Part shown: positions 36,220-59,975 of the stretch, in pieces
How positions within the stretch are numbered: position 1 is the first letter of the stretch
Layout of the letters: the number at the start of each line of letters is the position of its first letter
IMG/VR virus record: IMGVR_UViG_3300035181_002074
Location: 62,001-126,000 of that record
From: a virus
DNA length: 64,000 nt
Direction: 5' to 3' (one strand)
The notes under the pieces: generated by a model
The model's database searches: none
Told to the model about the DNA's origin: nothing
The model's input: the letters and a program-made list of their open reading frames with translations, nothing else
Made by a program: the position numbers and the translations under genes

Positions 36220-38199
36220 ATGAAAATATACGGAATAGGCGCCAGTCAAGCCATTGATTCTTCAGGGGAAATCTTAATGATCGACGGTGTCGATCTATCC
36301 GATGTTCATGCTGGAAAAGCCTTCTTCAATTGGGAGCACAGTAACGATGGCGCCGATACCTGCGTCGGAAGCCTGACTTTTGCCAAAAAAATCTATTCTG
36401 AAAAAGACTGTGAAAATCCAAAACAATTAGAATGCTGGAATGAAACCCTTTTACCAATGATTTACATTGAAGGGGTTCTCTTTGATAAAGAAGGACATGT
36501 TGGGGCAATTTGCTTGGCCGCTATGTTTCGTTCATTTGTAGCCAGAAATCAAAAAATTGAAATCGGTTCTTCCATTGAAGGTTCTACCATGGAACGTGGA
36601 AAAGGCGAAGAGCACCATGTTCTTAAAAGAACTGTAGCCCGCCGTTGGGCAATTACCCTCAGACCGTGTAACAAGCAATGTTTCCTTAAGGTATTGGCAG
36701 ACGATACTGCTGATGTAATGAAATCGGAAATCGACTGGGATTCTATCAGTCATGATCGTGCCCCAAAACATGGATTCATCGAAATCGACGACCCAATCGA
36801 AGATATTTACCACACTATTAATGAATTAAATAAAACCCTAACAGCTGGATCGTCTAATGTTGCACCAAGTCAAATGGTTGGCGGATCTGCACTTACCCGT
36901 GAAAATCTAGTACCTAAAATGCAAAACGTTGGGATGCAAACTAGACTGAAAGCATCATTCAAGCGTTGGAATAAAAAGAAACCACTTAAGGAGCACCTTA
37001 AATCTGAGCTTGAAGATGTATCAGAGGAGTATATAGATAACTTCGCTAAACTCGCTGATGAACTCCATATTAAGAAATCTGAAGAATCAATGCATACTTG
37101 GCAACAAGTTTGGAATAATATGAAAGATTTCCATACTGGTTCAGTTAATGAAAAAGATGCACCCCATATGCACAAAGATGCGCAAAAATATGAGCATTAT
37201 AAACTTAGAAAAATCCCACTATCAAGTTTACATCATGGATCTGATACGCCCGATAAACCATTAGATCGCGAAGATGAAGCGCATGCACATCATTACGCTA
37301 AATTAGATACCCAAGCGCCACCAATCACTCTGCACCCAAAAGAAACTGGTTACCATATCGTAGATGGTCGTCATCGTGCTAGAGCTGCATACCTGAGAGG
37401 CGACAAAGATATTCTAGCTTACGTTGGTACTCCTATTCAAGCATTCACTAAATCTGAATCCCCTATTCGTATAGACCAGTCAATTGGTAATGATCGCGCA
37501 AATGCAGACCAGAAAGCTTTAATTGCAGGTATAGTTGTGCCAGCCAATGGCGGACAAAATATTCAAGTCATGAATGATTACGGCCAATCATCCCATATCA
37601 AGCCTTCTGCCCTGACCGAATCAGGTGGAGAAACCGCTAAAAATGCTTCTGCATATTATGCTGCAGCAAAAGATTTTTTCGACTTGGGCGAGCATGTTCC
37701 AGTATCAGCCTATTTTGCACACCAGACGGCACCACAAGAAGGGGCACCATTATTTCTAGCCACCGAGCATGTATCTGGTAAGCCATCGCTCATGGGTTCA
37801 TTGTTTGAGGATTCTATCGGTAAAGATAAAAATCTTATGCATAAAATTGCATTAATGGATACTATTTTGGGAAATTCACACAGAAACCATGGTAATATTA
37901 TATTGGGAGATACACCAAAGCTGATTGACAACGAACACGCTTTCGAATATAAACAAAAACCAGCGTTTCACATCAATCAATCCGGTGCCGACATTATTTC
38001 CGAAGATGTTCGTAATTGGTTAACTAGTAAGGATGCCAAGAAATTGGCTGGCTTGCTTGCATCACATAGAATCGGTATAGACCGTATTAAGAAAGCTATT
38101 TTTGCATTGAAGACTGCACAAAAAATGAATCATCATCCGATAGGTACCATTTTAGAGAACGTCCACTTTGTGGAACCTTCTCCAGAGGTAGCACAGTAA
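36220..38199 (+). CDS. Prohead protease fused to ParB-like and kinase-like domains
   Basis: A 659-residue multidomain protein. Residues 1-~190 look like a herpes-assemblin-fold prohead protease: YGIGASQAID, FFNWEHSND (H40) and IEIGSSIEGS (S118 or S117). Residues ~205-237 match the major capsid N-terminus without gaps. Residues ~330-420 include HIVDGRHRARAAYLRGD, as in ParB/sulfiredoxin-like domains. Residues ~430-640 resemble a HipA/PI4K-type kinase lobe, with NSHRNHGN (552-559) and LIDNEHAF (metal Asp D570). The usual catalytic Asp of the NxDR motif is His554, so it may be a pseudokinase. The C-terminal part may be packaged and injected. Confidence 0.72.
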   Translation: MKIYGIGASQAIDSSGEILMIDGVDLSDVHAGKAFFNWEHSNDGADTCVGSLTFAKKIYSEKDCENPKQLECWNETLLPMIYIEGVLFDKEGHVGAICLAAMFRSFVARNQKIEIGSSIEGSTMERGKGEEHHVLKRTVARRWAITLRPCNKQCFLKVLADDTADVMKSEIDWDSISHDRAPKHGFIEIDDPIEDIYHTINELNKTLTAGSSNVAPSQMVGGSALTRENLVPKMQNVGMQTRLKASFKRWNKKKPLKEHLKSELEDVSEEYIDNFAKLADELHIKKSEESMHTWQQVWNNMKDFHTGSVNEKDAPHMHKDAQKYEHYKLRKIPLSSLHHGSDTPDKPLDREDEAHAHHYAKLDTQAPPITLHPKETGYHIVDGRHRARAAYLRGDKDILAYVGTPIQAFTKSESPIRIDQSIGNDRANADQKALIAGIVVPANGGQNIQVMNDYGQSSHIKPSALTESGGETAKNASAYYAAAKDFFDLGEHVPVSAYFAHQTAPQEGAPLFLATEHVSGKPSLMGSLFEDSIGKDKNLMHKIALMDTILGNSHRNHGNIILGDTPKLIDNEHAFEYKQKPAFHINQSGADIISEDVRNWLTSKDAKKLAGLLASHRIGIDRIKKAIFALKTAQKMNHHPIGTILENVHFVEPSPEVAQ

Positions 38200-38816
38200 T
38201 GAAAGTTTTAAGAGTTACTTCTGATTATGTTGACGTACCACTATTAGAAGTACGTACTGATGGTAATAAAATTGAAATTATCGTTGATAATAGTAATGGC
38301 AAGATCAGCAAGGAATTGGATGACACCCTAGCTTCTTTACATGATTATGTTAAACATTCATCCCATTTAAAACTAACTGAACCAGATGAGCCAGCCGCAC
38401 ATTTACTTCGTTACGTTTTAGAGAATGGTGATGTTGCAGAAGTTACGACCGATGGTGCTACGTGTGTATTGAATAATAAACTTTTATCACGCCAAGAAAA
38501 AGCAGCCTTTTTTGATGCTTTATCATCTGGTCAAATTAAAGTTGCTCGCAAGGCTGATATTCAAACTCCAATTCCCGTGCCTGCTGGAACGAAAAGACAA
38601 CCGCAACCAAATGAGCCTAAAAAGGTTAAATTGGATATGCATATATTAGAGCAATACAATGATCAGCAGCGTGAAAAAAAGAAGAAGCAAGAAGATCAAG
38701 CTCTAAGAGGTGAGGCTGATTTTGGTGATGCGACGTTTGAAATACCGTCTACTGATATACCATTTGCTCAAAGTATTGCTCAAGTCATAGCGAAGGACAA
38801 GTATGCCAACAAATAA
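38199..38816 (+). CDS. Protein of unknown function before the giant gene
   Basis: A 205-residue protein. The N-terminal ~130 residues are beta-rich with alternating strands. A charged, Lys/Gln-rich helix (DQQREKKKKQEDQALRGEAD) and an acidic stretch follow. ATG overlaps the previous stop and the end overlaps the giant gene by 14 nt. Possibly a virion-associated or chaperone-like partner of the giant protein. Confidence 0.6.
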   Translation: MKVLRVTSDYVDVPLLEVRTDGNKIEIIVDNSNGKISKELDDTLASLHDYVKHSSHLKLTEPDEPAAHLLRYVLENGDVAEVTTDGATCVLNNKLLSRQEKAAFFDALSSGQIKVARKADIQTPIPVPAGTKRQPQPNEPKKVKLDMHILEQYNDQQREKKKKQEDQALRGEADFGDATFEIPSTDIPFAQSIAQVIAKDKYANK

Positions 38817-41800
38817 TGATAACGTGCCTGATATTGACATACGTCAAGCTACTCCGCCAGCGATGGAACAGCCCCAAGCGATCAATGAAGAATTATCTCC
38901 AGAAACTGATGCGGAACCTACTTGGCAGCCGCATGGAGATCATTGGCGTAACTTATCAGACCAAGATGCTACTCCAGAATATTTAGATAGCGTAGCTCAA
39001 CAGCATATTGCTAACCCTGATTTTATTGATAAGTACGACTCCGAAAAGCTAGCCGAACATCCAAATATCACGCCGGAGACCTTAAATAACTTATATAATC
39101 ATTATTCACAAGATCCTGATAAACATAAATATTTAGAGCAGCTGGCTGCTATTCATGGTAATCCAAATGCCCCAGCCGCTATACATAACACGACTTTAGA
39201 TAACTGGCTAGCGCAACCTAATTCTGATACCGCATCTAATGCTTCTAATCCGATATTAAACGCTGCATTAAACCATCCCAACGTCCCGCAAGAAAAAGTT
39301 CATCAAGTACTGGATCGAGTAATTAGTGACCCTAAGAATAATAACCATCTTGATGCATCAAGAGCTGATCCAGCTTGGTTGCAAAATAAATATAACGAAG
39401 CTAAACAAGCACATGATGATAATTTTCATGAGCTTTCCGTTTCCGGTCGATTACGCGACTCTCAGAAAAAGATTAGCCATTATGGCAATGAATTGATCGA
39501 TCACCCAAATCATACGCCAGAATCATTAAGCGCACTCCATAATCAGATCACTACTCAAGGCAATGGCAGCGCTGCTGAACGATTACTGGAAAAACAGCCA
39601 AACTTATCGCATAATCAAGTCGAAGATCTATATAATAAATTTAAACCAGAAGAAGGCAGCTGGTCTAATATTACCTCTAGAGCTTTTGGTCATAATAATA
39701 TTGACCCAGCTTTTTTGGCGCACAAGGCGCTGACCGGTAACGATCAAGAAAAGGAAGAGGCTCTTCAGTCTGAAAAACTTCCGCATGAAACGCAAAAGAA
39801 GATTACGGAAGATGCCATTGCTAGTGGTGATAGCAACACTCTAGCACAGCTATTAGAAAATAAATCCTTACCTTCCGAGTTAGTACATCAAATCTATAAT
39901 AATAGTGCTAATGAAGGTGACTATGCTCGCCGTAAGGCTTTTAATCATGGTAACTTTCCAGAGCATGAAGTGGAAAATGCGTGGAATTCATCAGATAAAA
40001 GTCGTGAAACTACAAAACAGTTTTTGCAACGCGATGTGTTGCCAAAATCCGTTTTAGCTGATATCATTACTAAAGGTAAGCCCGTTGATGCAGCTAAAGC
40101 GGTTGGCCATAAAAGTACCGATAAAGATATTTTAGATATTGCCGCCAAACGTAAATCTAAAGATGTTAAAGCTGCTATTGCTAGGCATCCTTTAGCTGCC
40201 GAATCCAATGTTCAGGATTATATTAAATCTGGCCATGTTCCTGCTGATCAATATTGGGCAAAATTTGACAGCAAATTACCACCCGAAGATCAAGCAAAAA
40301 TGCATCAGCATTACTTTGATAAATTAATGACCGCTGCACCAAATAAAAAAACGGACGGGCTTGCCGGAAAATCCGCTATCAATTTGTACAATTCGCCTCA
40401 TCTCACTGCTGAGCAAAAAAATAAAATTACGGAAAAAGCATTGCACGAGAGCGATTCATATAATTATGGTTATGATGATCGCAGAGCATTTCTGAAAGTT
40501 ATAGGTCAGGCAGCCAATGATGGCAATGAAGAGGCCATTAAAAAAACATTTTCCGGTCGTGGTAGTATTGAGGCGTTACAATTAGAAAAAGCGCATAACC
40601 CAAAAGTGATCAGCACTGCACTAGATATAGCCATGGGTAGGGCAGAGGATGACCGATATAGTGATAATGACAGATCTGGAATCGCTTCTAAAATAATTGC
40701 AAATCCAAACTTAAGTGACGATCACGTGCATTCGTTACTATCTAACGAAGACTTAGATCTGACTGTCGCAGTGGCGGATGGCGCAATTTCCAAGCATTTA
40801 GAAACGAAGACTCCAGAGCAGCAACAACAGTTCTTGAATAATTTAGCTCAATCAGGAGATCATGGTAAAGCATTAGTGATTGCTAATCCATCCACACCGA
40901 TTGAGATGAAAAATCAGCATATTAATTCTCTCGATAGCGATCATATTGCTGCTTTAGCGTATACCATGGGTACTAGATTTGGCGAAATGGCCAAAGGTTT
41001 ACCAGAAGATACTAAATTAAAGCTGTATTCCATGCCAACCAGTAGTCGGACACCGATGTTTGATCGGATGAAAGAGGCTTTTTCACCGGAACAAACTCCG
41101 TTAAGCACTTTACTTTCCAGCGTACCGTCAACTGATATGCGTCACATACTTAAGTATAGTATTTCCGATAAATATAAATTCACGGCAGATGCAGTTCCAG
41201 TAGTATTACAAAAAAGTCCAGAAGCTTTTGATACATATTTCGATAGAATGGTATCCCAGCATCCACATTATAGTGTCCGTCGAGATCATCCAGCTCATAA
41301 TCATATGAAAGATACCATTAATTCTATACTACCCCACTTAAATGAGGATAATGGTGTTCATGCCATCATTGGTATGATGACGTCTGAAGCTACTAGACAT
41401 AGTTCAGAAAGCGCCAAAGGTGCCTTTAACTTTTTACTAGATCCAGCCCAAAGCCCATTTTTAGACCCAGCAGCTAGGGAAGAATTAATCCCAATGGCTT
41501 TGAAGCGTGATCTTTTCGATGACGAGACCAAGAAACAAATTTTTAGTGATCCAGCTTATCAAGCCACGTTAATTGCTAATGCTAGTACGCCACCAGCAGT
41601 GAAAGCTAATTTAATTCAAAGTAATCTAGCATCTGGGCAAGCTTCCGATGCAATCTGGAATGCTATTAAAACTGAACCGAGAGTATTTGGAAGTCTTGAT
41701 CGTGATAGCGATGAGCAGATGTTTAAAAGTATCATTAATGAGGGTGCTCGTCGTGCAGATCATGATACGGTTGCCAATACTTTTAAAGAGTTTTTAGATT

Positions 41801-44800
41801 CCAAATCTGCTAGTTCAATGGCTATTACATCAGCAATGCAAAACATCCAACGCAATCCAGCCATGGGTGAGCAAGAAAAGAATAAGTTAATTTTAGATTC
41901 CTATAATCAAATGTCGAAAAGCAGAACAAACGCTACTTTTTTCAGGGATCGCGTAGCTCCGGCATTAGACGAAACAGTTGCGAATGCTATGATGGCAACA
42001 AATGACATGAGGTCATTGTTTAATATCGCAGCCGATAAAAATTCATCCGATATTTTCAAGGATACCATCAACAAGATCGCTGTTAATGCTGACTCTTTGA
42101 ATGACGATCAGCTTGGAAGCATGCTTGATCAGATGCAGGATAATGCATCGCACTTAGCTAACTTAACTCCGAAAAATTTCATTAATGTTGTCAATGCTTC
42201 ACTGCGTAAAGATGATGTGACGGCAATCGCGGGTACTAATGCGTTATCATCTGGAATTAAATACTCCAAAGGGCGTAATTTACAGACGTTAAGTAAAGCT
42301 GGACTCCAACGATTAGATGTGTTGTCGCAACAATTAGTTGTGCCACCAGCTGCCGACGATATAAACGGCCAAGAAATTTACAAGAATAAACAAACAGTTC
42401 ACTCTGGACTTGCTCAGACGATCATGCAAACATCGACCGATCTTGATACGCAAGTGAAGGCTGGATTACAGATTCCTGATGATTACGAAGGTCGTGTAAT
42501 TAGACTTAATAGTGATTTCTTGAATTCTGGTGATTTTTTAACCAAATTTTCTGGTAAAAAATGGGCTGGATTAGCAGCTGCCTCTTATTTTAATCAATTT
42601 GATCGGACGAATCAATCTGCTGCGGCAGATTTTCTCGTCAAAAACTATTTGCCGTTTAAAGAAGACTCTGGCGAACACGTCGGAATGATTTTATCATCAT
42701 TTAGTGGAAGCGCACAGAATATAGACCCAGAATTCGTACATAAATTATTTGATTCCCAGAATTTTGATCAGCAACTTAATGCAATGAATAGAATGATCAA
42801 TCATGGTCAAAAATACGGCTTTCAAAACCTGCCGATAGAGCATATCATCGATAAGTTTCATTCTAATGTAGAACAATTAGTGAATGGGATAGATGCAACT
42901 ACTGGAGCTAAATACGATGCGACCCATCCAGAATACCATAATAAGATAGCATCAGCAATCAAGGCGTTAATACCTGCTAGCGTGTACGGCGGATATAATA
43001 ATGAGCAATCCGCAGAAAAAAGACAAGAAGCAATTGCTAAGTCATCAGCCCTTGCTAATAAAGTCCTGAGTAATCCAAACACTCCGATAGATGTAAAACA
43101 GTCAATAGCAAATTCGGCGCATGCTATCTTTGACATGCATGACGGTATATCAAAAATACCGGAAGAATCATTGAACGACCTGATTGCAAATATTGTTGAT
43201 CATACGACTGTAACAACAAACTTGTCGGATATGATTCGGACTCCAAAAGTAAGCGCATCTAATACTGAAAAAATCCTAACGAAATCTCCAGAACAAGCAC
43301 GTTTCATGACAGATAACCCGCAAATGACGCCGGAAAGAATGTCATTAATTGGTAAACACGTGTTACCTAATTTATCTGAATTTGGACATCACCATATATC
43401 TGAAATGTCGAATGAAATTCTCACACATGCGCAAACTGCGGGTACAATTGATCTTGCTATACCTTTAGTGGGTGACATGATTTCCCAGTCAGGTGCTGGC
43501 GGGAATAATTTAAAATACGTGATCAAGGATCTATCCCCTCTGAGTGATGATCATACCCAAACTCTGATTCGTAAGTACGGATTTGATGCCGAGCAAATGT
43601 TGATGGCTGGTCACGGTGGTCAAAAAACCTATGATGATTATGTAATTTCAGGTTCCACTCCAAGTAATGTACATGCATTTATTCAACATCCATTGTTTGA
43701 TGATCGTGGCGTTGATCTGGTGATGAATAACGGCAGGAATGTAACTGATAATATCGCTCGGATCGTAAAAGCAGGAACCAAGGTATCAGAAGCGAAGTTT
43801 AATCAATTAACTAAAGAGCATTCAGATGTGTTCGAAAAGAATCCTAACCTATTAACTTCGTCACCGTATGTAACGTATGAGAAATTAAATGAGCTGCATA
43901 AGAAAATTGCACCAACTTTTGATAAATTTATCCGACCGGGTGAGGCGTTCCCACCAACTTATACTAATATTAAATACGGTTCAAAAGTATTCCGTGAAAA
44001 TTATCCACAAGAATTGCCACGCGGAATGACTACCTTATCTAATGGTGATATTTTAAAGTCACATTCAGCAAGGCCAGAAGCCGACAGGCTCCAGAAAGCA
44101 ATGCAAGTTATTCCACCGGAAGGAATAGCTTGGGCTCAATTTAAAAAACTACATAAACAAATGGAAAACTGGCCAGAGGTTAAGGCATTATTTATGTCTA
44201 AGAATAATAAGCCGGTTATGCCGGAAGATGTAGCAAATGAAATCGCCAAAAAACCGGAACAGCAATTTCATATCAGCTATTCCACATGGGATGGTGGCCA
44301 AAGACATTCGCAGGCTAATAACTTAGTTGTTCAAGTAAATACAGGAGAATTTTTCGATAAAGAGCTAGGTCAAGACCAAAAGTTATGGCAATTCTATCAA
44401 ATGATTCAACAATCTGCTAATGGTGCTGCCGGTGGACATGCAGGCAGTCATCCAGTAACTCCTCATACGATTGGATGGGTTCGCATTGATGTTTCAAGTC
44501 CAGAAAGTTTTATCGTAGAGGAATTCCAATCTGATTTCAATCAAAAATTGAAAAAGAAGGTTCGTGATTCATTAGGAAGCCGAGATTCTTTCGAATATGG
44601 CGGAGAAAGGTATACCGCAAAAGAAGCTGAGCAGTACGTGGATAAGATATCAGAATTGTTTAAGCATTTTAATCCCATCTCTTATGATATCGTAGAGAAA
44701 CTGGCAAGACAGCAAGGCATCAAACAGATTTATATACATGGACAAGGTGTTCGCCGTTATTTATCTGGAGTAAACGAAGATCAACATATCGCAGCATTCG

Positions 44801-44931
44801 ATGAGGCGTATACCAAATTGCCGAAACAGAACGGTTATTCTGAATGCAATTACGAAGATTACCCGAATCACAGCAACAGAACATCAAGTGCTATTAAGAA
44901 TCATCAATGCTGGGTTAAAAAGCTCAGCTAA
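38803..44931 (+). CDS. Giant 2,042-residue repeat protein, probable injected polyvalent protein
   Basis: Residues ~50-1700 consist of degenerate ~20-40-residue helical units. They carry a recurring Asn/His-Pro-Asn followed by a short loop and helix (HPNITPETLNNL, HPNVPQEKVHQVL, QPNLSHNQVEDLY, NPNLSDDHVHSLL), like leucine-rich-variant or HEAT-type solenoids. The C-terminal ~250 residues include IGWVRIDVSSPESFIVEEFQSDF and a later KLARQQGIKQIYIHG. This matches the (E/F)QSD-containing domain I know from phage polyvalent proteins. It is about 10% of this window and is probably carried in the virion. The stop overlaps a convergent gene. Confidence 0.68.
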   Translation: MPTNNDNVPDIDIRQATPPAMEQPQAINEELSPETDAEPTWQPHGDHWRNLSDQDATPEYLDSVAQQHIANPDFIDKYDSEKLAEHPNITPETLNNLYNHYSQDPDKHKYLEQLAAIHGNPNAPAAIHNTTLDNWLAQPNSDTASNASNPILNAALNHPNVPQEKVHQVLDRVISDPKNNNHLDASRADPAWLQNKYNEAKQAHDDNFHELSVSGRLRDSQKKISHYGNELIDHPNHTPESLSALHNQITTQGNGSAAERLLEKQPNLSHNQVEDLYNKFKPEEGSWSNITSRAFGHNNIDPAFLAHKALTGNDQEKEEALQSEKLPHETQKKITEDAIASGDSNTLAQLLENKSLPSELVHQIYNNSANEGDYARRKAFNHGNFPEHEVENAWNSSDKSRETTKQFLQRDVLPKSVLADIITKGKPVDAAKAVGHKSTDKDILDIAAKRKSKDVKAAIARHPLAAESNVQDYIKSGHVPADQYWAKFDSKLPPEDQAKMHQHYFDKLMTAAPNKKTDGLAGKSAINLYNSPHLTAEQKNKITEKALHESDSYNYGYDDRRAFLKVIGQAANDGNEEAIKKTFSGRGSIEALQLEKAHNPKVISTALDIAMGRAEDDRYSDNDRSGIASKIIANPNLSDDHVHSLLSNEDLDLTVAVADGAISKHLETKTPEQQQQFLNNLAQSGDHGKALVIANPSTPIEMKNQHINSLDSDHIAALAYTMGTRFGEMAKGLPEDTKLKLYSMPTSSRTPMFDRMKEAFSPEQTPLSTLLSSVPSTDMRHILKYSISDKYKFTADAVPVVLQKSPEAFDTYFDRMVSQHPHYSVRRDHPAHNHMKDTINSILPHLNEDNGVHAIIGMMTSEATRHSSESAKGAFNFLLDPAQSPFLDPAAREELIPMALKRDLFDDETKKQIFSDPAYQATLIANASTPPAVKANLIQSNLASGQASDAIWNAIKTEPRVFGSLDRDSDEQMFKSIINEGARRADHDTVANTFKEFLDSKSASSMAITSAMQNIQRNPAMGEQEKNKLILDSYNQMSKSRTNATFFRDRVAPALDETVANAMMATNDMRSLFNIAADKNSSDIFKDTINKIAVNADSLNDDQLGSMLDQMQDNASHLANLTPKNFINVVNASLRKDDVTAIAGTNALSSGIKYSKGRNLQTLSKAGLQRLDVLSQQLVVPPAADDINGQEIYKNKQTVHSGLAQTIMQTSTDLDTQVKAGLQIPDDYEGRVIRLNSDFLNSGDFLTKFSGKKWAGLAAASYFNQFDRTNQSAAADFLVKNYLPFKEDSGEHVGMILSSFSGSAQNIDPEFVHKLFDSQNFDQQLNAMNRMINHGQKYGFQNLPIEHIIDKFHSNVEQLVNGIDATTGAKYDATHPEYHNKIASAIKALIPASVYGGYNNEQSAEKRQEAIAKSSALANKVLSNPNTPIDVKQSIANSAHAIFDMHDGISKIPEESLNDLIANIVDHTTVTTNLSDMIRTPKVSASNTEKILTKSPEQARFMTDNPQMTPERMSLIGKHVLPNLSEFGHHHISEMSNEILTHAQTAGTIDLAIPLVGDMISQSGAGGNNLKYVIKDLSPLSDDHTQTLIRKYGFDAEQMLMAGHGGQKTYDDYVISGSTPSNVHAFIQHPLFDDRGVDLVMNNGRNVTDNIARIVKAGTKVSEAKFNQLTKEHSDVFEKNPNLLTSSPYVTYEKLNELHKKIAPTFDKFIRPGEAFPPTYTNIKYGSKVFRENYPQELPRGMTTLSNGDILKSHSARPEADRLQKAMQVIPPEGIAWAQFKKLHKQMENWPEVKALFMSKNNKPVMPEDVANEIAKKPEQQFHISYSTWDGGQRHSQANNLVVQVNTGEFFDKELGQDQKLWQFYQMIQQSANGAAGGHAGSHPVTPHTIGWVRIDVSSPESFIVEEFQSDFNQKLKKKVRDSLGSRDSFEYGGERYTAKEAEQYVDKISELFKHFNPISYDIVEKLARQQGIKQIYIHGQGVRRYLSGVNEDQHIAAFDEAYTKLPKQNGYSECNYEDYPNHSNRTSSAIKNHQCWVKKLS

Positions 44932-45158
44932 TATTCAAACATTCCACGTTTTTCACCCAAATGTATCTGAGTGTACTCATGGTAAATCGTTAATGTTTTC
45001 CCGTCAATAATAACTTCATGAAGCGGTGGCATAAGTATATGTAACGCTTCAGGCACTTTAATGCCAAGCCGAGCACTCTGTTCATATTCTTTGAATACCA
45101 TGGTATGCAAAAATACTAACAAGGTATTTTGCAATTTAGTATTATTTGGTGGCAGCAT
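44928..45158 (-). CDS. Small protein in the minus-strand island
   Basis: A 76-residue alpha/beta protein, starting at the ATG at 45158 (MLPPNNTKLQN). The longer frame to 45209 would overlap the upstream gene more. No clear ribosome-binding site is present, so translation is probably coupled to the overlapping upstream gene. Its stop overlaps the convergent giant gene's stop by 4 nt. No family recognised. Confidence 0.55.
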   Translation of the reverse strand: MLPPNNTKLQNTLLVFLHTMVFKEYEQSARLGIKVPEALHILMPPLHEVIIDGKTLTIYHEYTQIHLGEKRGMFEY

Positions 45159-45402
45159 TTTGAGTAAACAGCATATAACCACGCTTGAATCTTTGCTCAC
45201 CAGCATCATCTACCAAAGTAGTCTCTACTTGAGCCAGCACGTATGGAGTATTGTTACGTTCAAGGCGGCTTTCGACTTCTTCTATGTCTCCCATGGACAT
45301 TGGTTCAGTATAAGCATCTATTTCTCGGATGAAAATCTTTTGATTTAAAAGATCATGTGAATCTTCGATAATTTTTACATTTTTGTATTGTTGTGCTGCC
45401 AT
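45142..45402 (-). CDS. Small protein of unknown function
   Basis: An 86-residue protein with strand-rich segments (KIFIREIDAY, YVLAQVETTLVDD) and a basic C-terminus. Strong ribosome-binding site AAGGAAAGG. It is the second gene of the island transcribed against the late genes. Unrecognised. Confidence 0.6.
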   Translation of the reverse strand: MAAQQYKNVKIIEDSHDLLNQKIFIREIDAYTEPMSMGDIEEVESRLERNNTPYVLAQVETTLVDDAGEQRFKRGYMLFTQNAATK

Positions 45403-45403
45403 A

Positions 45404-46045
45404 TTATGCTGCCTTTCCTTCTGCTACGTTAAACTTAAAGATATTCTTAATTGCGAATCTTGGGATACGGATAGTCATTTCAGCTTTTCCTAAAGCTACG
45501 TTAAGGTCTTCAACTCTCTTAATTTTCTTGGCTTTTGCGCAAACTGGGCCAATTCCAAGGGCAATTGAATTCTCGTCAGTCAATTTCAATCCACAGATAC
45601 CACAGTGGCAAACTCTTTTGTAAGAAGTAACCACGCGAGCAGTAACAGAACTGTAATTTTCGCTAATAACTTCAAGTACTTCTACGTTGTGGAACTTCTT
45701 CTCAAAACCAGCTTGAAGGCCAATTTTTACAGCCATCATGTGGTTTACGGTAATAATGTCGCCAACCGCCACAGAAGCGTCAGGATTAGCAGCTTTCACC
45801 GGAGTGGTTACTTCACCTTGGGACTGTAAAGTGCGTAAAGTAATATTGTTTACTACGCTTTGGGAAGCTGCAAGTTGTGCAGGAGATAAGATCCAACCTT
45901 TTGCAACATACGCAGCCATTCTTGCGAGAAAGCTATTTCTTTTGCTGTGCTCGGAAATCGCAGCGAAAAGCTCTTGGTTGGCTTCTAGGTAGAGAGCCTT
46001 AGTTTCAGATTGTTCAGCAGTTACTGGATTAATAATAAATTTCAT
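45404..46045 (-). CDS. Protein with DUF6011-like zinc motif
   Basis: A 213-residue protein. The central part forms a beta-rich domain. Residues ~145-170 read CHCGICGLKLTDENS and GIGPVCAKA, the (CxxC...GxGPxC) zinc signature I associate with DUF6011. Function of that domain is unknown, possibly nucleic-acid binding. I chose the ATG at 46045 because AGAAGGAAAC precedes it and the promoter fits; a frame extending to 46096 would begin in the -35. Confidence 0.72.
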   Translation of the reverse strand: MKFIINPVTAEQSETKALYLEANQELFAAISEHSKRNSFLARMAAYVAKGWILSPAQLAASQSVVNNITLRTLQSQGEVTTPVKAANPDASVAVGDIITVNHMMAVKIGLQAGFEKKFHNVEVLEVISENYSSVTARVVTSYKRVCHCGICGLKLTDENSIALGIGPVCAKAKKIKRVEDLNVALGKAEMTIRIPRFAIKNIFKFNVAEGKAA

Positions 46046-46060
46046 AGTATGTGTTTCCTT

Positions 46061-46096
46061 CTTATATAGATTATCACTATTCGAATCAGAAGTCAA
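46061..46096 (-). promoter_or_regulatory. Sigma-70 promoter of the minus-strand island
   Basis: On the minus strand TTGACT (46091-46096), 17 bp, TAATCT (46068-46073), then six bases to GAAGGAAAC. The transcript would begin with the ribosome-binding site, 16 nt before the ATG at 46045. Confidence 0.65.
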
Positions 46097-46198
46097 TAAA
46101 TAGTTTTGAGATAATGCATATTATTTTTACCAATAAAAACAAATGTTTATAAAATCAAAGCTAACTCCATAATAATATACACTTTTTGAGAAATCTAT

Positions 46199-46209
46199 CC
46201 TAATACTCT
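46199..46209 (+). promoter_or_regulatory. Late-type promoter variant CCTAATACTCT
   Basis: Lies in the 165-nt gap before the 46262 gene and differs from the late motif CCTAATATTTT at two positions. A short GGGC/GCCC hairpin follows (46219-46233) in the leader. The leader ends TTAAGGAGTTAAAACCT before ATG. The rest of the gap is AT-rich; nothing else is seen. Confidence 0.45.
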
Positions 46210-46261
46210 TTGGTGTACGGGCGAATTATGCCCACAATAAACTTTTAAGGAGTTAAAACCT

Positions 46262-46717
46262 ATGTCAGTTTTCAAAGCTGCCGCTCACGTAAGAGAGCTA
46301 AAACAAAGATTGTCAATTTTATTGCCATCTTCCACTATTTCTGAATCATCTGATACAGATACAATGCCAACCCTCACTATTCAAACTGGTACTGAATACC
46401 AAAATTTGAAAATCAGTGTTGATGGAAACCAAGGACGTGTTGATGGTCTCGGACTTTCTCAACGTGCTTATTCACCACATGTTTGTCAACTAATCCAAGA
46501 GTCTGCTGCTGCTGCTGATGCTGCAAAAGCGTCCGCTCGTGCTAAAGTACTTGCAGGTTGTGCAAAACTGGGCATGAAAATTACTCTACAGCAAGCTGCT
46601 GATGCTGGATTATCTGCTAACTGGACTGCTGCTGTAGCTGCTGTAGCTGCTGACTCAGGTGCGACTACTATCGTATTACCAAGTGATGAAATCAATCCAT
46701 TAACATCTTCTCAATAA
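46262..46717 (+). CDS. Small protein upstream of scaffold and capsid
   Basis: A 151-residue protein with a helical N-terminus (AAAHVRELKQRLSILLPSS), a beta-rich centre, and an Ala-rich helical part (ESAAAADAAKASARAKVLAG). It has an unusually strong ribosome-binding site (TTAAGGAGTT) and leads the capsid operon, so high expression is likely. It may be a capsid accessory, internal or decoration protein. Family not recognised. Confidence 0.62.
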   Translation: MSVFKAAAHVRELKQRLSILLPSSTISESSDTDTMPTLTIQTGTEYQNLKISVDGNQGRVDGLGLSQRAYSPHVCQLIQESAAAADAAKASARAKVLAGCAKLGMKITLQQAADAGLSANWTAAVAAVAADSGATTIVLPSDEINPLTSSQ

Positions 46718-46728
46718 GGAGCTTCTAA

Positions 46729-47547
46729 ATGAAATTCTCCGATATAGAAATAGATCAACTATTAGCATCCGTAGAAGATGCTATGGCACAAGCTAGTAAG
46801 CTTGCTAAGTCTCAGCCGATGCAAAAAGATGCAGACGCTGATCAAGACGATCAGCAAGCTGCTCCAGCAATGGATGCCCAAGCTCCTGAAAGCGCTCCAG
46901 CAATGGACGCTGCTCCAGCTGCTGATGCACAAGCTGCTCCTGATCAAGACCAAGGACAAGACCAAGCCCCAGAAGGTTCACCAGAAGATCAAATCCAAGA
47001 TGAAGGACAAGATCAAGGCGAAATTTCTGATGAAGAACTTCACCAAATCTATGCGAGCATGGATGAAAATGAACTTCATAGGCATTTGACTGCTATTGAA
47101 GCAGCTCTAGGTGGTGGACAAGATCAAGGCCAAGAACAAGAACAACAAGCTCCAGAACAAGCGCCAGCAGCTGCTCCGGCACCTGCGTCAATGACTGACC
47201 AAATGGCGATGAAATCTGAACAAACTGTAAGTGACCTCAATAAATCTGAAACTAAAAAGCTTCAAGATGAAAATGATGCACTTAAAAAGTCACTTGATAA
47301 AGTAATTTCAGCAATGGGTAAAGCTTTTCAGCCAACTCGTAAAGCTGTAACCGATATCGAGTATATCCAAAAATCAGAGTCTCAAACCGACGAGCGTCCG
47401 CTCACTAAGTCTGAAACTGTGGCACAACTCAACAAAATTGTAAAATCTAACAGCCTCTCAAAAGCCGATAGACAAGCAATCAACGATTACATCCTTGCGG
47501 ATGGATCACAAGAACAAGTCAAAAAAATTCTCAAAGGGGGAAAATAA
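46729..47547 (+). CDS. Probable capsid scaffold/core protein
   Basis: A 272-residue acidic protein. Residues ~35-155 are Asp/Gln/Ala/Pro low complexity (repeats of QDQGQDQ and APAMDA). A predicted coiled coil follows (KSETKKLQDENDALKKSLDK), then a basic C-terminus (VKKILKGGK) that may bind capsid. It lies just before the major capsid gene. This layout fits a prohead scaffold, which the phage protease would remove. Confidence 0.68.
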   Translation: MKFSDIEIDQLLASVEDAMAQASKLAKSQPMQKDADADQDDQQAAPAMDAQAPESAPAMDAAPAADAQAAPDQDQGQDQAPEGSPEDQIQDEGQDQGEISDEELHQIYASMDENELHRHLTAIEAALGGGQDQGQEQEQQAPEQAPAAAPAPASMTDQMAMKSEQTVSDLNKSETKKLQDENDALKKSLDKVISAMGKAFQPTRKAVTDIEYIQKSESQTDERPLTKSETVAQLNKIVKSNSLSKADRQAINDYILADGSQEQVKKILKGGK

Positions 47548-47550
47548 ATA

Positions 47551-48939
47551 ATGGACTTAATTAAGCAACTAGAATCCCTAGTTAAAACCTTAGAGGCTGG
47601 AAGTTACAATTCAGCACCGGGACAATTAGTACAAGGATCTGCGCTTCAATCTGAAGATCTGTCAGCTGTTATGCATAATGTGTGTATCGCTTCAGATGAG
47701 ATTAAATTGCAGAAACTTTTCGGTAAGAAAAAAGCAAAATCTCTTACCATCCAATTCAATCGTCAGTTATCATACGGACGTTTGGGTGGAGCAGCTCAGC
47801 GCGAAGGCGCGGTTGGTAATACCAACGTAGGCGACTACGTTCGTGCTACAGTACCTATGTGCTTCTATTCAGAAGTACGCAGAGTGACTGAAGCAGCTAA
47901 CTTGATCGAAGCATTTGATGGTATCAAAGCAGAAGATCGCGAAGCTGAAAACGCAGCTGAAGTAATTGCTATGAACATTGAGTTCGACCTTTTCAAAGGT
48001 AAAGCAGACTTCTCTAACGCAGGTGTATTTGATGGTCATCCAGCAGCTATGCCTGAATTACCAAACATGCTTGGAGTTGACTCTCAAATTCGTCAATCTG
48101 ACATGCTTGTAACTACTCAAGACCTTATGTTCGCGTCTTACGGATCTAATCAATCTGTAGTTCTTGCTCAGAACGCTGCTCTTGACCAGATCGTAATTGA
48201 AGATGCTCGTCTTCGTGCAAAGTTGAACTTTTCACAAGCTAAGAATCTTTATGTAGATCCTGTAATCATGACTAGCTACAACAAAAAAGTTGCACTTGGT
48301 ACTGGTACTAACAGTATTCAACGTATTCAACTCGCTGGTTCTGCTCAAGACGTTTCTGGAGCTTCTCTCCGTCGTCAATGGACAGCTCACGGTGATGTTA
48401 ATCTTGAAGAGTCTCACTTCTTACGCGGTAAGACTTCTCCACTTCGTCCAAACATTGGTGGGCCTTCTGCTCCAGCAATCACTACTCAACCATCTTTCGG
48501 TGGTTCTGGTTCATTGATTACTGCGGGTACTTATGTTTACCTAGTAACTGCTCAAAGTGAAATCGGCGAAAGCCCTGCTACTGCTACTAACACAGTTTCT
48601 CCTACTACTGGCACAGTTGTTACTATGACAATTACTGCTCAGTCTGGAGTTAAGTTTTACAGCATCTATCGCGGAACTAATGCTAAGAATGCTAAGTTCA
48701 TCGGTAACGTTGCTGCAACTGGTGGAAACGTAGTATTTACTGACCTTGGTAATAAGGCTCCGGGATTCGTCACAGGGTACCTCCTAGACGAGAAGACTTG
48801 GGAAATGCATGATCTTGCCGCTTACAGTCGTAAGAAACTTGCTCAATCCGATCTTTCTACTCCAGAGGCCCATTATACCTTCACAACTGTGGCAGGATAC
48901 CAACCTCGTAAAAATGTAATTATCGATAATTTAATTTAG
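47551..48939 (+). CDS. Major capsid protein
   Basis: A 462-residue protein with HK97-fold character: an N-terminal delta-like segment (residues 1-~50), E-loop/P-domain strands (KSLTIQFNRQLSYGRLGG, CFYSEVRRVTEAANLIEAFDG) and A-domain parts. An inserted immunoglobulin/fibronectin-like domain (~300-405, GTYVYLVTAQSEIGESPA to FYSIYRGTN) may be surface exposed. Residues ~12-44 share an ungapped module with the prohead-protease fusion. Codon use appears optimised. Followed by a strong terminator. No other good candidate in the window. Confidence 0.82.
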   Translation: MDLIKQLESLVKTLEAGSYNSAPGQLVQGSALQSEDLSAVMHNVCIASDEIKLQKLFGKKKAKSLTIQFNRQLSYGRLGGAAQREGAVGNTNVGDYVRATVPMCFYSEVRRVTEAANLIEAFDGIKAEDREAENAAEVIAMNIEFDLFKGKADFSNAGVFDGHPAAMPELPNMLGVDSQIRQSDMLVTTQDLMFASYGSNQSVVLAQNAALDQIVIEDARLRAKLNFSQAKNLYVDPVIMTSYNKKVALGTGTNSIQRIQLAGSAQDVSGASLRRQWTAHGDVNLEESHFLRGKTSPLRPNIGGPSAPAITTQPSFGGSGSLITAGTYVYLVTAQSEIGESPATATNTVSPTTGTVVTMTITAQSGVKFYSIYRGTNAKNAKFIGNVAATGGNVVFTDLGNKAPGFVTGYLLDEKTWEMHDLAAYSRKKLAQSDLSTPEAHYTFTTVAGYQPRKNVIIDNLI

Positions 48940-49931: not shown

Positions 49932-50423
49932 ATGGAAATTATCAAAGATCAAAACGGTTGGAAGTTAGGCAAGAAAGACAATGTTTTTTATCTAATCTGC
50001 CAAGATGGTGAAGAAATTCGCTATGGAACGTCTAAAGATAACGCCTTCCAGTGGTTTGATCGGGTCATAGAAAAAGGCTGGACACACCTAACTCGAAACT
50101 ATTACACCGTCACTGTGACCAACGGTAAGATTATTACTGGCAAACACCAAAACAATAGCGTAAGAAGCGATAAGCTCGATCAGTGGAGCAGCAGCGTGTA
50201 TTTGACCGCAGAAGAGGCCAAAGCTGCGATTAGCTTGGTATTACCCAAAGCCAAAGAAAAGTTTGAAGCCTGTCAAAGTGCCTACTTAGCTCTGCACAAA
50301 GAAATGGGGTTCTCTTCTGGTTGTAATTATGATGGCGACACCCATGGCATCTATAATGAATATGAATATATTTCGTTTCAGATGGATGGATTTCATTTCG
50401 AGTTTCCCCTAAATTGTTCTTGA
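49932..50423 (+). CDS. Protein of unknown function
   Basis: A 163-residue alpha/beta protein. It begins with a strand-turn pattern (GWKLGKKDNVFYLICQDGEE), then a helix (KDNAFQWFDRVIEKGW). A second helical part (TAEEAKAAISLVLPKAKEKF) and a Tyr/Phe-rich end follow. It has its own promoter and precedes another, so it is a single-gene early unit. No family recognised. Confidence 0.6.
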   Translation: MEIIKDQNGWKLGKKDNVFYLICQDGEEIRYGTSKDNAFQWFDRVIEKGWTHLTRNYYTVTVTNGKIITGKHQNNSVRSDKLDQWSSSVYLTAEEAKAAISLVLPKAKEKFEACQSAYLALHKEMGFSSGCNYDGDTHGIYNEYEYISFQMDGFHFEFPLNCS

Positions 50424-50455
50424 CTTCTTCCAAAGAAAGGTGTAAGATTTATATA
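50420..50455 (+). promoter_or_regulatory. Leaderless sigma-70 promoter
   Basis: TTGACT (50420-50425), 17 bp, TAAGAT (50443-50448), six bases, ATG at 50455. The predicted transcription start is the A of ATG. Confidence 0.7.
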
Positions 50456-50577
50456 TGAGTGATATAGACAGTCCATTTTGGGATATTTTGTTTGATAATA
50501 ACCAGTTCTTTTTTTGCCACGATCCAATTGGTGAAAACGGTAATAGCTATCCGATGCTAGCAGTAGGAGATTGTTAA
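50455..50577 (+). CDS. Acidic mini-protein
   Basis: A 40-residue acidic protein rich in Phe and Asp ([16 protein letters not shown]). Leaderless start; its TAATG end couples it to the pentapeptide-repeat gene, whose ribosome-binding site TAGGAG lies in its last codons. Function unknown. Confidence 0.6.
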
Positions 50578-51020
50578 TGACCCCAAAACAACTTAAATTA
50601 ATCTTAGACCAGCACCTTTTATGGTTACAAACTGACCCGAAGGGCATCCGTGCCAACCTTAGTGGAGCCGACCTTCGTGTAGCCAACCTTAGTGGAGCCG
50701 ACCTTCGTGGAGCCAACCTTAGTGTAGCCGACCTTCGTGGAGCCAACCTTAGTGGAGCCCACCTTCGTGGAGCCCACCTTAGTGGAGCCAACCTTAGTGG
50801 AGCCAACCTTAGTGGAGCCCACCTTCGTGGAGCCCACCTTAGTGGAGCCCACCTTAGTGGAGCCATAGGCATCCAAGTTTTTTGTTTGATGCAAAACGCA
50901 AAAACCTACGATTTATCCAAACAATATATTAAAATCGAATATTGTCAATATTATTCGGCTAAAAATCTGGTAAATATCAACAAAGTTTACAATGTTAGTG
51001 TAGTGGAGGAAGTAATATAA
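50577..51020 (+). CDS. Pentapeptide-repeat protein
   Basis: A 147-residue protein. Residues ~24-97 consist of about 15 tandem A(N/D/H)L(S/R)(G/V) units, which fold as a right-handed quadrilateral beta-helix. Some pentapeptide proteins mimic DNA and protect gyrase, but this one is short, so the role is open. I chose the ATG at 50577 over a TTG six nt upstream because it forms TAATG with the previous stop. The 15-bp DNA repeats suggest recent expansion. Confidence 0.82.
50655..50866 (+). repeat. 15-bp tandem repeats encoding pentapeptides
   Basis: About 14 copies of a 15-bp unit close to AGTGGAGCCAACCTT, with alternation of CTTAG/CTTCG and GCCAA/GCCGA/GCCCA. Low divergence between copies points to recent slippage or unequal exchange. 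Confidence 0.85.
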
Positions 51021-52803: not shown

Positions 52804-52813
52804 TATTATTATA
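52778..52813 (+). promoter_or_regulatory. Leaderless sigma-70 promoter of the VWA gene
   Basis: Perfect TTGACA (52778-52783), 17 bp, TAATAT (52801-52806), six bases, then ATG at 52813. The predicted transcription start is the A of ATG. A GAGG nearby could also serve read-through transcripts. Confidence 0.72.
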
Positions 52814-53973
52814 TGAGTTTAAGCGTATTAGAAGATAGCATTATTTACTTACTCCACACTGAACCTTTCTATGCCCATCTCTTAATGAGAATGCGTCGCA
52901 TGAAAACGACTAAGATCGAAACCGCAGGTGTTCGTATTACCGACGGAATCGACCTTCTTTATAATGAAAACTATCTGATTAAGCAAAAAACTGCCCACGG
53001 CATTAAAGCCCCTGCTGGGATTCTTAAGCATGAGTGCGAGCATGTGTTATTCCTACACTTGGGCGGACGTCAAGAAGGTTTCGAACACAAGAAATTCAAT
53101 ATCGCTGCTGATTGCTCTATTAACCAATTTAATTCCCTGATTGACGGTATGAAAGAGGATATTGTTACCCTTGATAACTTTAAGAAGCTCGTGGAAAATC
53201 CAAATGTGGAAGCTCAACAAACTCTTGAATATTACTATGGCCTTCTTCAGAAAAAATCTGACGAGAAAAAAGGTGACCCAGAATTTCAGAAAATGCTTGA
53301 CCAGATGTCTGAGTCTTTAGACGACCACGGCACATGGGATGAATCAGTTTGTGGTGAAGCCCAAAAACGTATTGCTCAATATGCGGTTAATCAGGCTGCT
53401 ACGTCAACTGGCAGAGGCAACCTTCCCGCTAATATTGCCAAACAAATTGAAACAATGAACAAAGAAACCCTTAACTGGAAATCCATCTTAAGGCGCTTCT
53501 GGAGTCGTGGAGTAACTGTAGAAATTAAATCCACTAGAATGCGCGTAAATCGTCGTTGGGGTATCGCTCAACCGGGTAAACGCACAAATCCATTGGTTCA
53601 CGTTGCAATGGTTATCGATACTTCTGGCTCTATGGGAGATGACGACATTGATGCAATTTTTTGTGAAGCGAAACGTATTCACGACACTGGTGCTACTGTA
53701 ACGATTATTGAATGTGATACAGAAGTGCATAAAACATGGACTTATCAAGGTAAAAATAATGTAGAAGTGCATGGCCGTGGCGGTACCAGTTTCCAGCCCG
53801 GTTTGGATGCTGCAGCAAAAGCTGATGCAGATGTTTGTATTTATTTTACGGATGGGGACGGCGAACAAGATTTTAAACTCCCTAAAATGCCAGTACTTTG
53901 GGTATTGACCCGCGAAGGCCACTCTGGAACAGTTCCAGAAAAAGGACTTAAAGTATGGATGAAAACGAAGTAA
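52813..53973 (+). CDS. VWA protein with metallopeptidase-like domain
   Basis: A 386-residue protein of the DUF2201 type. The N-terminal half has a zincin-like helix (LKHECEHVLFLHLGG, HECEH at 73-77). The C-terminal half is a von Willebrand A-like fold with the metal-site motif MVIDTSGSMGDDD and later GRGGTSFQPGLDAA and YFTDGDGE. These proteins pair with MoxR-type AAA+ ATPases, and one follows at 54429. The pair may act as a chaperone or insertase on an unknown phage or host target. Confidence 0.8.
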   Translation: MSLSVLEDSIIYLLHTEPFYAHLLMRMRRMKTTKIETAGVRITDGIDLLYNENYLIKQKTAHGIKAPAGILKHECEHVLFLHLGGRQEGFEHKKFNIAADCSINQFNSLIDGMKEDIVTLDNFKKLVENPNVEAQQTLEYYYGLLQKKSDEKKGDPEFQKMLDQMSESLDDHGTWDESVCGEAQKRIAQYAVNQAATSTGRGNLPANIAKQIETMNKETLNWKSILRRFWSRGVTVEIKSTRMRVNRRWGIAQPGKRTNPLVHVAMVIDTSGSMGDDDIDAIFCEAKRIHDTGATVTIIECDTEVHKTWTYQGKNNVEVHGRGGTSFQPGLDAAAKADADVCIYFTDGDGEQDFKLPKMPVLWVLTREGHSGTVPEKGLKVWMKTK

Positions 53974-58724: not shown

Positions 58725-59975
58725 ATGACCCCAAAAGATAATATTACAATTCAAAAAACTATCGCCGACTACTTCAGCACATTGCCTGTAACGAGTCAGA
58801 CATTAATAGTTCAGGCGATTAATGATCAAGTATCACCGTTATTGGCTACATATGCCAACCAATTAGGAATGAGCCCAGCAGATTATACTATTAATTTAGC
58901 TATTAATCAATCAATCCAAGAGGCAACCAAATCGTTAGCTAAATCCGAATCACTATATTCTATAGTACTGACAAACAGCCATACCTCTACACAAGATATT
59001 CAAAATCTTGTTGATGAGTTGGTATATAAAAGTTATTTCAATAATCAGGAACTTAATAAAAGCTTAAAGAATGCTGCAATCGGATTAGGAATGGCGGCAA
59101 TGTTTGCTAATCCTAGTGCTGCTCAGGGGTTAAAAGTTCAGAGCCCATCAAAAGCGACTTCTTATTTAACTCATTCCGCACCAAAAACTGCAGATATGCG
59201 TACAACGTTTGAACCAGAGCCGTGGGGCAGTCAACCAGAAGATGCTTTTTTACATAACACCATGCAACTCGAAACAAGCGGCGGCAAGAATACCCAGCAT
59301 AAAAAAATCACCTCCGGTCCACAAGCCGGACAGACAGCTATTGGTAGGTGGGCATTATTGCCCAACACTATCCGTGAAATGCATAATCGAAATAAAGGCC
59401 ACTGGGGGCATCCAGATTTAGAGCGTCTTGGCAGCATGAATGATACCCAAATGTCTAAATATTTACAATTAAATCCGGGCATTGAATTACATATTGCCCG
59501 TACTCTGGCTAAATTCGTAAATAAGAAGCAATGCGGCGATAAACTGAAATGTGCATATTCTTGGAAATTTGGCCATAATTTATCACCGAACGATATCGGC
59601 GCAGATAAATTAAATAATAGTTATGTGCAAGACTACCATAAATTACAGCAAGGTAAGTCACCTCGCGGATTGAGACCAGCATCGTTTGGATTTCCGTTAC
59701 AGCCAGCAAAAACACTAACCCCTAAACAACCGTTCCAGATCCTTAAAAGTGAAGCAGCTGATTTTGCTCCACGATTGAAACAATGGATCAAAGCTCGCGA
59801 AGACAAAGAGCAAGATACTATTTCAAATACTATGAAGCAGTATGATGATTTACGTGCAGTATCAGCCGTACCCGATAGTGGTACCAAGCCAGATGATCGA
59901 TTGAATCTTGATTTAGATAATCCCATGGATCGTATTAAACTTGCTATCAGAAAAGTTGTAGGTAAAGACGAATGA
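58725..59975 (+). CDS. Virion protein with lytic transglycosylase-like domain
   Basis: A 416-residue protein. Residues ~175-260 resemble a soluble lytic transglycosylase: MQLETSGGKN with catalytic-like E183, then QTAIGRWALLPNTI, and a helical part that may close the cleft. The flanks are helical or low complexity. It would cut peptidoglycan during infection. GAGGGGAAATAATC precedes the ATG. Overlaps the next gene by 4 nt. Confidence 0.7.
   Translation: MTPKDNITIQKTIADYFSTLPVTSQTLIVQAINDQVSPLLATYANQLGMSPADYTINLAINQSIQEATKSLAKSESLYSIVLTNSHTSTQDIQNLVDELVYKSYFNNQELNKSLKNAAIGLGMAAMFANPSAAQGLKVQSPSKATSYLTHSAPKTADMRTTFEPEPWGSQPEDAFLHNTMQLETSGGKNTQHKKITSGPQAGQTAIGRWALLPNTIREMHNRNKGHWGHPDLERLGSMNDTQMSKYLQLNPGIELHIARTLAKFVNKKQCGDKLKCAYSWKFGHNLSPNDIGADKLNNSYVQDYHKLQQGKSPRGLRPASFGFPLQPAKTLTPKQPFQILKSEAADFAPRLKQWIKAREDKEQDTISNTMKQYDDLRAVSAVPDSGTKPDDRLNLDLDNPMDRIKLAIRKVVGKDE

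Follow-up and report, generated by a model that had tools for sequence, protein, structure and literature searches.

To our knowledge, it is still an open question how phages that encode their scaffold protein separately deliver the correct number of head-maturation proteases to the correct place in the prohead. Encapsulins offer a point of reference: their cargo-loading peptides are short, bind the inside of an HK97-fold shell and carry enzymes in, and they are C-terminal tails, not copies of the shell protein's arm. Here we describe a 64,000-nucleotide stretch of viral DNA (positions 62,001 to 126,000 of IMG/VR record IMGVR_UViG_3300035181_002074; hereafter the window, in whose own numbering all positions are given), in which a module of about 33 residues occurs both in the N-terminal arm of the major capsid protein and in the C-terminal region of a prohead protease fused to further domains (the cargo). 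Its closest described relatives are gp3.2 of phage SPO1 and the protease of phage K, which, like the window fusion, consist of a protease domain, the module, and a tail (about 60 residues in these two), are encoded in the order protease-scaffold-capsid, and are accompanied by a capsid protein with the same module. Unlike the window fusion, they are free of cargo, at 247-278 amino acids in total in the Herelleviridae examined, and the module is unannotated in their records.

Other described systems share single features with this locus. Protease gp245 of the giant phage SPN3US also has a C-terminal propeptide, its capsid protein has an N-terminal propeptide, and Ser is preferred at P1' (PMC10052503); its cut motif, however, is AXE, whereas the motif predicted here is hydrophobic-x-K, and a copy of the capsid arm within the propeptide is not reported in the accessible part of that paper (PMC10052503). 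The prohead-core targeting propeptides of T4, as cited in the same part of PMC10052503, likewise direct internal proteins into the prohead and are cut by the head protease. Those propeptides are N-terminal and are removed at their C-terminal end, whereas the window module is internal, copies the capsid arm, and would stay on the kept side of a cut predicted at its N-terminal end. Nor does the module resemble the HK97 delta domain, an N-terminal part that is removed from the capsid protein: in the K-type homologue the module begins the retained chain, and the original prediction of a delta-like element therefore does not hold. Phage polyvalent proteins are multidomain, include ParB, kinase and assemblin-like protease domains, and are proposed to be packaged, according to the accessible part of the study that describes them (PMC5512222). 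The fusion and its relatives likewise join several effector-type domains in one polypeptide (ParB-like and kinase-fold here, GGDEF and DUF6321 in relatives). In polyvalent proteins, however, the assemblin-like protease is C-terminal, whereas the window protease is N-terminal and is the main head protease, and no capsid-arm module is reported in that part of the study (PMC5512222).

A module common to protease and capsid protein

All features of the fusion, scaffold, and capsid genes given below lie on the + strand. The protease copy of the module (36832-36930, residues 205-237, with a conserved core at 205-231) reads KTLTAGSSNVAPSQMVGGSALTRENLVPKMQNV, and the capsid copy (47584-47682, residues 12-44 of the N-terminal arm) reads KTLEAGSYNSAPGQLVQGSALQSEDLSAVMHNV. 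The two 33-residue stretches align without gaps, as had been claimed together with their DNA coordinates, and 20 of 33 residues and 61 of 99 bases are identical. BLASTP of the whole fusion against the whole capsid protein gave a sole significant match, also gapless, which pairs capsid residues 2-61 with fusion residues 195-254 (26 of 60 identical, E = 5e-8). Smith-Waterman alignment scored 96, whereas 1000 shuffles averaged 30 and never exceeded 57. Chance similarity is rejected by the E value, the shuffles, and the covariation permutations given below, and we regard these sequence facts as secure. With the fusion as query, the phage's own 160.6-kb record returned nothing beyond the fusion itself and the module stretch of the capsid gene, and we found no credible match to the module outside the capsid protein and the protease in other genes of the window phage or of related loci.

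The 659-residue fusion (36220-38199 in the list of open reading frames, ORFs) is by homology a head-maturation protease of the Peptidase_S78/SPO1 gp3.2 type. It matches the "putative prohead protease" of Myxococcus phage Mx1 (tblastn E = 9e-52), the protease domain of which matches SPO1 gp3.2 (E = 1e-4); Peptidase_S78 is the Pfam family of SPO1 gp3.2 and the K protease. A Pfam search of the window fusion did not call the protease domain. A hidden Markov model (HMM) of the protease matched residues 2-154, and Foldseek with the protease part of the fusion retrieved viral prohead proteases, so that homology and structure matches both bear out the original assignment. A structure search also aligned a 584-residue protein of an uncultured phage, named for its PI3K/PI4K domain, across most of the fusion model.

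To describe the parts of the fusion we used an AlphaFold2 model built with a 28-sequence alignment (an alignment-free model had a mean predicted local distance difference test score, pLDDT, of 32.6 and was not usable). The protease domain (residues 2-165, 36223-36714) was modeled with pLDDT of about 90-98 and contains H40, H93, and S118, which are invariant in the 28 aligned proteases and have a putative catalytic Ser/His role. It is followed by a disordered linker (165-204), the module, a helical tail (233-306, 36916-37137) of a kind that cargo-free proteases also have, a ParB-like domain (318-402, 37171-37425; phrog_1033, E = 2.4e-5, and phrog_3264, E = 1e-4), and a PI4K/HipA-like kinase-fold domain (420-655, 37477-38184; high pLDDT, Foldseek match to PI4KII-alpha at E = 4e-6, weak Pfam match to PI3_PI4_kinase). 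Thus the module does lie between the protease and the ParB/kinase part, but not exactly so, because the linker and the tail intervene. The module itself (209-234) has pLDDT below 50 and is flanked by ordered parts, as for an arm that might become ordered upon binding. Measured as the mean majority-residue fraction over the 28 proteases, conservation was 0.62 in the module and 0.60 in the protease domain, 0.52 in the helical tail (residues 255-290), 0.34 both in the linker and directly behind the module, and 0.27-0.29 in the ParB and kinase regions; P216, A224, and L225 of the module are invariant, and K205, G210, and E228 almost so. A separate idea, that the helical tail mimics the C terminus of the scaffold, was plausible by eye and was dropped after hhalign returned a probability of 0.3%.

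The 462-residue product of 47551-48939 was correctly named as the major capsid protein: it matches phrog_752 (E = 2e-35), is 49% identical to the major capsid protein of Mx1, and gave Protein Data Bank profile matches to SPO1 Gp6.1 (E = 6e-27) and the K-type capsid protein (E = 3e-14). The scaffold gene (46729-47547) directly precedes it, as SPO1 gp3.3 does its capsid gene, and its product has the matching composition (7 Lys-Ser, 4 of them Lys-Ser-Glu, against 1.7 Lys-Ser expected). The order protease-scaffold-capsid is that of SPO1, with a gap of about 8.5 kb between protease and scaffold that includes a 2042-residue ORF. In the full K-type capsid sequence (5lii) the module is preceded by EDVVK, and the deposited chain in 9row, 9rox, and 9roz starts at SFQTGYG; in 9row_B this is S25, the first residue of the module, after K24. 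Because the deposited chain begins there, we take the module to be the mature N-terminal arm of these capsid proteins. By alignment with K24↓S25, the window capsid protein has a predicted 12-residue propeptide (47551-47586) ending in S-L-V-K12↓T.

Breadth of the sharing and covariation of the copies

To determine how widely the module is shared, a profile of the capsid N termini of 80 related IMG/VR loci was searched against all ORFs of those loci, and its second match was almost only in the protease. A protease domain was present in 69 loci, of which two are distant controls. Between this domain and the module, which is C-terminal to it, there are 24-361 residues; a further 61 to 1193 residues come after the module, and minimal proteases stop about 61-98 residues past it. 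The module is present in 59 of the 67 non-control loci with a protease, including two degenerate copies. Among named phages, the protease-capsid pairing is found in Mx1, SPO1, K, AG20, Eldridge, Goe26, LP65, EFP01, Exiguobacterium and Lysinibacillus phages, PHB04, ST4, Dolphis, Mecenats66, and Thermus phage phiMa. The ordinary proteases of SPO1, phage K, Listeria and Enterococcus Herelleviridae, PHB04-like phages, and phiMa all carry the module. The paired copies read DKSLEAGYEVDPEKMEGGDVFRKESLDKDLKNLSY in gp3.2 and NKALEAGHTVNPLDLEGGGAFRVESLERSLHNLSF in Gp6.1 of SPO1, KSFLTGHGTSPDTQVDAGALRKE in the protease and KSFQTGYGITPDTQIDAGALRRE in the capsid protein of phage K, and LTAGDPHALDPKSGLTGVPAIRRESLE and QTAGDPHALDFKAGLTGVPAIRLESIE, respectively, in phiMa. 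A tblastn search of phage records with the module alone used a query too short for distant relatives; SU10, named by the Pfam model that matches the SPO1 capsid protein, has no protease annotated in the 30 kb examined and is uninformative.

The original prediction would have been undone had no homologue kept the module; homologues of both proteins retain it. Its further implication, that the module is a special property of the cargo fusion, gave way: restriction to such fusions is ruled out by SPO1, K, and other short cargo-free proteases, in which the module is common, and the ParB/kinase part is a clade-specific addition. Judged from these alignments, a wide group of head proteases truly shares the module as a conserved feature, and the window fusion is an elaborate member of that group. 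The sharing is apparently undescribed so far; we found no published description in a literature search that for the most part did not reach subscription papers.

We then scored each protease tail against each capsid module in a double-centered permutation test with 20,000 permutations. In 14 reference phages, the mean score was 95 for protease and capsid protein of the same genome and 53 across genomes, and none of the 20,000 permutations reached the observed covariation in these phages, in all 65 genomes, or in a 51-genome clade. Seven control capsid segments gave null results in the same test. In 17 of 20 phages, a genome's own two copies are closer to each other than its capsid arm is to the arm of any other group. 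Had the copies been old paralogues that diverged independently, every combination should give similar scores; the covariation and the closeness within genomes therefore speak against such an origin. At identical residues, the number of same codons was at chance level in three of five pairs, despite 20-26 identical residues (observed/expected, LysYB2 10/10.8, K 12/10.6, EFP01 8/10.5), and in slight excess in the window pair (12 of 20 against 7.9 expected) and in phiMa (16 of 23 against 11.8). The chance-level codons of LysYB2, K, and EFP01 thus argue that protein-level selection, rather than recent copying, keeps the two copies matched. A capsid-arm copy that tracks the capsid protein, present in genetically tractable phages like SPO1, makes protease recruitment a directly testable question.

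Predicted cleavage, proposed docking, and competing readings

Scaffold composition pointed to a candidate cut site. Lys-Ser tops the dipeptide enrichment of the reference scaffolds (113 against 36.6 expected) and ranks in the first two places for 72 distinct related scaffolds (439 against 207); its context has a hydrophobic P3 and a Glu in the P2' position. The pattern [LMIVF]xKS[ED] occurred 249 times in scaffolds (8.6 expected), 70 times in protease proteins (10.2 expected), and never in capsid proteins. Its density per 1000 residues of the protease proteins was 0.25 in the protease domain, 3.81 in the linker, and 3.39 in the tail, with none in the module. From the scaffold composition and one set of deposited chain starts we infer that the motif is a cut site, and hydrophobic-x-K↓S-E has the appearance of a cleavage consensus common to these proteases, which would provide a wide group of phages with a predicted cut motif. 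The motif is also of note in its own right: in the scaffold genes of about 70 related phages (46729-47547 in the window) it is 29-fold enriched over shuffles, and we saw no annotation that mentions it.

The fusion contains four predicted cuts. V-M-K168↓S-E (36715-36729) lies at the end of the protease domain, in the linker in which the motif is concentrated family-wide; E-L-N-K205↓T (36823-36837) lies at the module start, has a hydrophobic P3 and Lys at P1, and aligns with K24↓S25 of the K-type capsid protein; I-K-K286↓S-E (37069-37083) and F-T-K411↓S-E (37444-37458) match the motif at the boundaries between helical tail and ParB-like domain and between ParB-like and kinase-like domains, respectively. 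A hydrophobic P3 and Lys at P1 before A, T, or S mark the module start in 50 or more proteases and capsid proteins. The conserved core of the module lies 11-20 residues past this bond, and in five proteases (L082, L061, L018, L046, and L067) the Lys-to-Pro spacing is 6 instead of 11, with both the Lys and the P...AL..E core retained. Because scaffold sites lack the module, the core lies so far beyond the bond, and the spacing varies, the module is probably more than a cut site; the pattern fits two elements, a bond for cutting and the core of a binding arm. The earlier suggestions of a capsid-targeting or assembly tag and of the protease's own cleavage site would then each be partly right, in that the module opens at a predicted cut while its core extends beyond what cleavage specificity alone would explain.

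Our best explanation, on which we are evenly divided between belief and doubt, is that the protease carries a mimic of the capsid arm that docks onto the shell or the scaffold, with self-cleavage and separation of cargo. The mature N-terminal arm of the capsid protein would be duplicated within the C-terminal region of the phage's own protease, and this copy would occupy the place of a capsid arm, on the inner face of the capsid lattice or on the arm-holding scaffold. A precedent for such a site is the procapsid of phage 80alpha, in which the capsid N-arm extends the P-domain sheet by one strand and lies against the scaffold before maturation moves it under the E-loop of a neighbor (PMC5744158); by analogy, a protease with the same arm could take the arm site on lattice or scaffold. 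By docking, the protease would enter the prohead together with whatever domains it carries on its C-terminal side. Once activated, the protease would cut hydrophobic-x-K↓S/A/T bonds, including capsid K12↓T13 and its own K205↓T206. The cut at K205 would leave the protease domain free to depart while the arm-bearing C-terminal part remained, mirroring the capsid protein, and in this clade K286↓S and K411↓S would serve as extra cuts that part the ParB-like and kinase-like domains, in the fashion of a small polyprotein. Cleavage as such seems not to need the module, because the scaffold sites lack it. The shared sequence, its breadth, its covariation within genomes, its conservation, and the enrichment of cut-like sites are observed, whereas docking by arm mimicry, self-cleavage at K205, and the separation and fate of the cargo are all steps that we infer. 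The module also points to a natural tag, about 33 residues long, with which enzymes might be loaded into HK97-fold heads.

Several observations weigh against this explanation. The proteases of 8 of the 67 loci (L021, L030, L050-L052, L055, L069, and L070) have no recognizable module, and none is visible in DAC23, Lalka8, MA9V-3, or L003; the module is therefore not universally needed. The ParB region (residues 312-412) has no confident AlphaFold2 model, the K205 site has Thr at P1', unlike the Ser of scaffold sites, and cut-like sites in the cargo are only modestly enriched, at 1.34 per 1000 residues against 0.58 in other proteins. Separately, the eight loci just named keep the capsid arm and offer a natural test of the need for the protease copy.

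An extension of the docking explanation is that the head protease is also a cargo-loading polyprotein. The arm mimic would seat the enzyme in the lattice, and self-cleavage would free the protease, leave an arm-tagged fragment on the shell, and release ParB-like, kinase-like, or GGDEF domains in the head for the next cell, with arm mimicry being the general recruitment mode of head proteases, ranging from those of SPO1 and K to those of Thermus phages. We consider this full scheme unlikely as a whole; that a protease fusion carries cargo is possible, and if so, the assembly protease of some phages would be a carrier of virion enzymes. What follows module and tail varies: ParB-like and kinase domains in the window, kinase without ParB in the close relative L007, and DUF6321 in L077. 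The strongest competing view, compatible with docking and in our judgment holding a substantial minority share of the probability, is that the fused domains are not virion cargo and have their role inside the infected cell, either ahead of assembly or while it proceeds (a kinase switch would be one example), and that the module concerns the protease alone. The cargo-free proteases of SPO1 and K have the module, so that cargo is not required for it, and the differing or missing cargo of close relatives, such as L007, also suits this view. Against it, the cargo domains follow the module and belong to the portion that would keep the arm once the cut is made, with cut-like sites on their flanks, and ParB and kinase domains are listed among phage polyvalent proteins thought to be packaged, in the accessible part of that study (PMC5512222).

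The main rival to docking itself is that the module is a capsid-arm-like pseudosubstrate, held over the protease's own active site or over an exosite that also binds the capsid arm, which blocks the enzyme until prohead construction is complete and is cleaved away thereafter. The covariation that we observed is equally expected under this reading, which is a further point against preferring docking; moreover, the Herelleviridae module sits directly behind the protease domain and opens with a cut-like bond, and, according to the accessible part of its description, SPN3US gp245 self-cleaves its C-terminal propeptide (PMC10052503). However, scaffold sites are numerous and lack the module, the module of the wider clade lies 24-361 residues past the protease domain, the core is on the prime side and 11-20 residues off, and AlphaFold2 gave no confident placement of the module. 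We thus hold the pseudosubstrate to be improbable, if clearly worth weighing. The reading that both proteins merely share a cleavage site, because one protease cuts both and the residues around the bond are hence alike, is already disfavored and has little probability left: the common opening of the two modules and the start of the deposited K-type chain agree with it, but the 26-residue module is missing from hundreds of scaffold sites, P216, A224, L225, and E228 are among the most conserved positions yet far from the bond, and the Lys-Pro spacing varies. Very improbable, finally, is recent copying or gene conversion that left a functionless protease copy, for although copies within a genome are more alike than orthologues across groups and two pairs show a codon excess, the codons of three pairs are at chance and the module matches the protease domain in its degree of conservation.

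Cyclase-like domains and neighboring genes

GGDEF (nucleotide cyclase-like) domains are fused to the C-terminal part of the head protease in three related loci (L057:3717-8030, L064:4483-8112, and L079:5293-7500), and in Mx1 a "nucleotide cyclase" is encoded by a gene of its own, the second one downstream from the protease gene (L001:12174-12905). The 2042-residue ORF between protease and scaffold in the window (38803-44931) has no convincing Pfam, PHROG, or NCBIfam family, and a relative of about 1990 residues occupies the same place in L007 (9938-15907). Three window proteins without a family match (58725-59975, 61968-62534, and 62535-63689) have two Lys-Ser-Glu motifs each and are possibly further head proteins cut by the protease. 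A pentapeptide-repeat protein is encoded at 50571-51020, where the opposite strand also has an open frame (50393-50872). The product of 52813-53973 is by Pfam a VWA-like/DUF2201 putative metallopeptidase protein, whereas its PHROG family label is HNH endonuclease.

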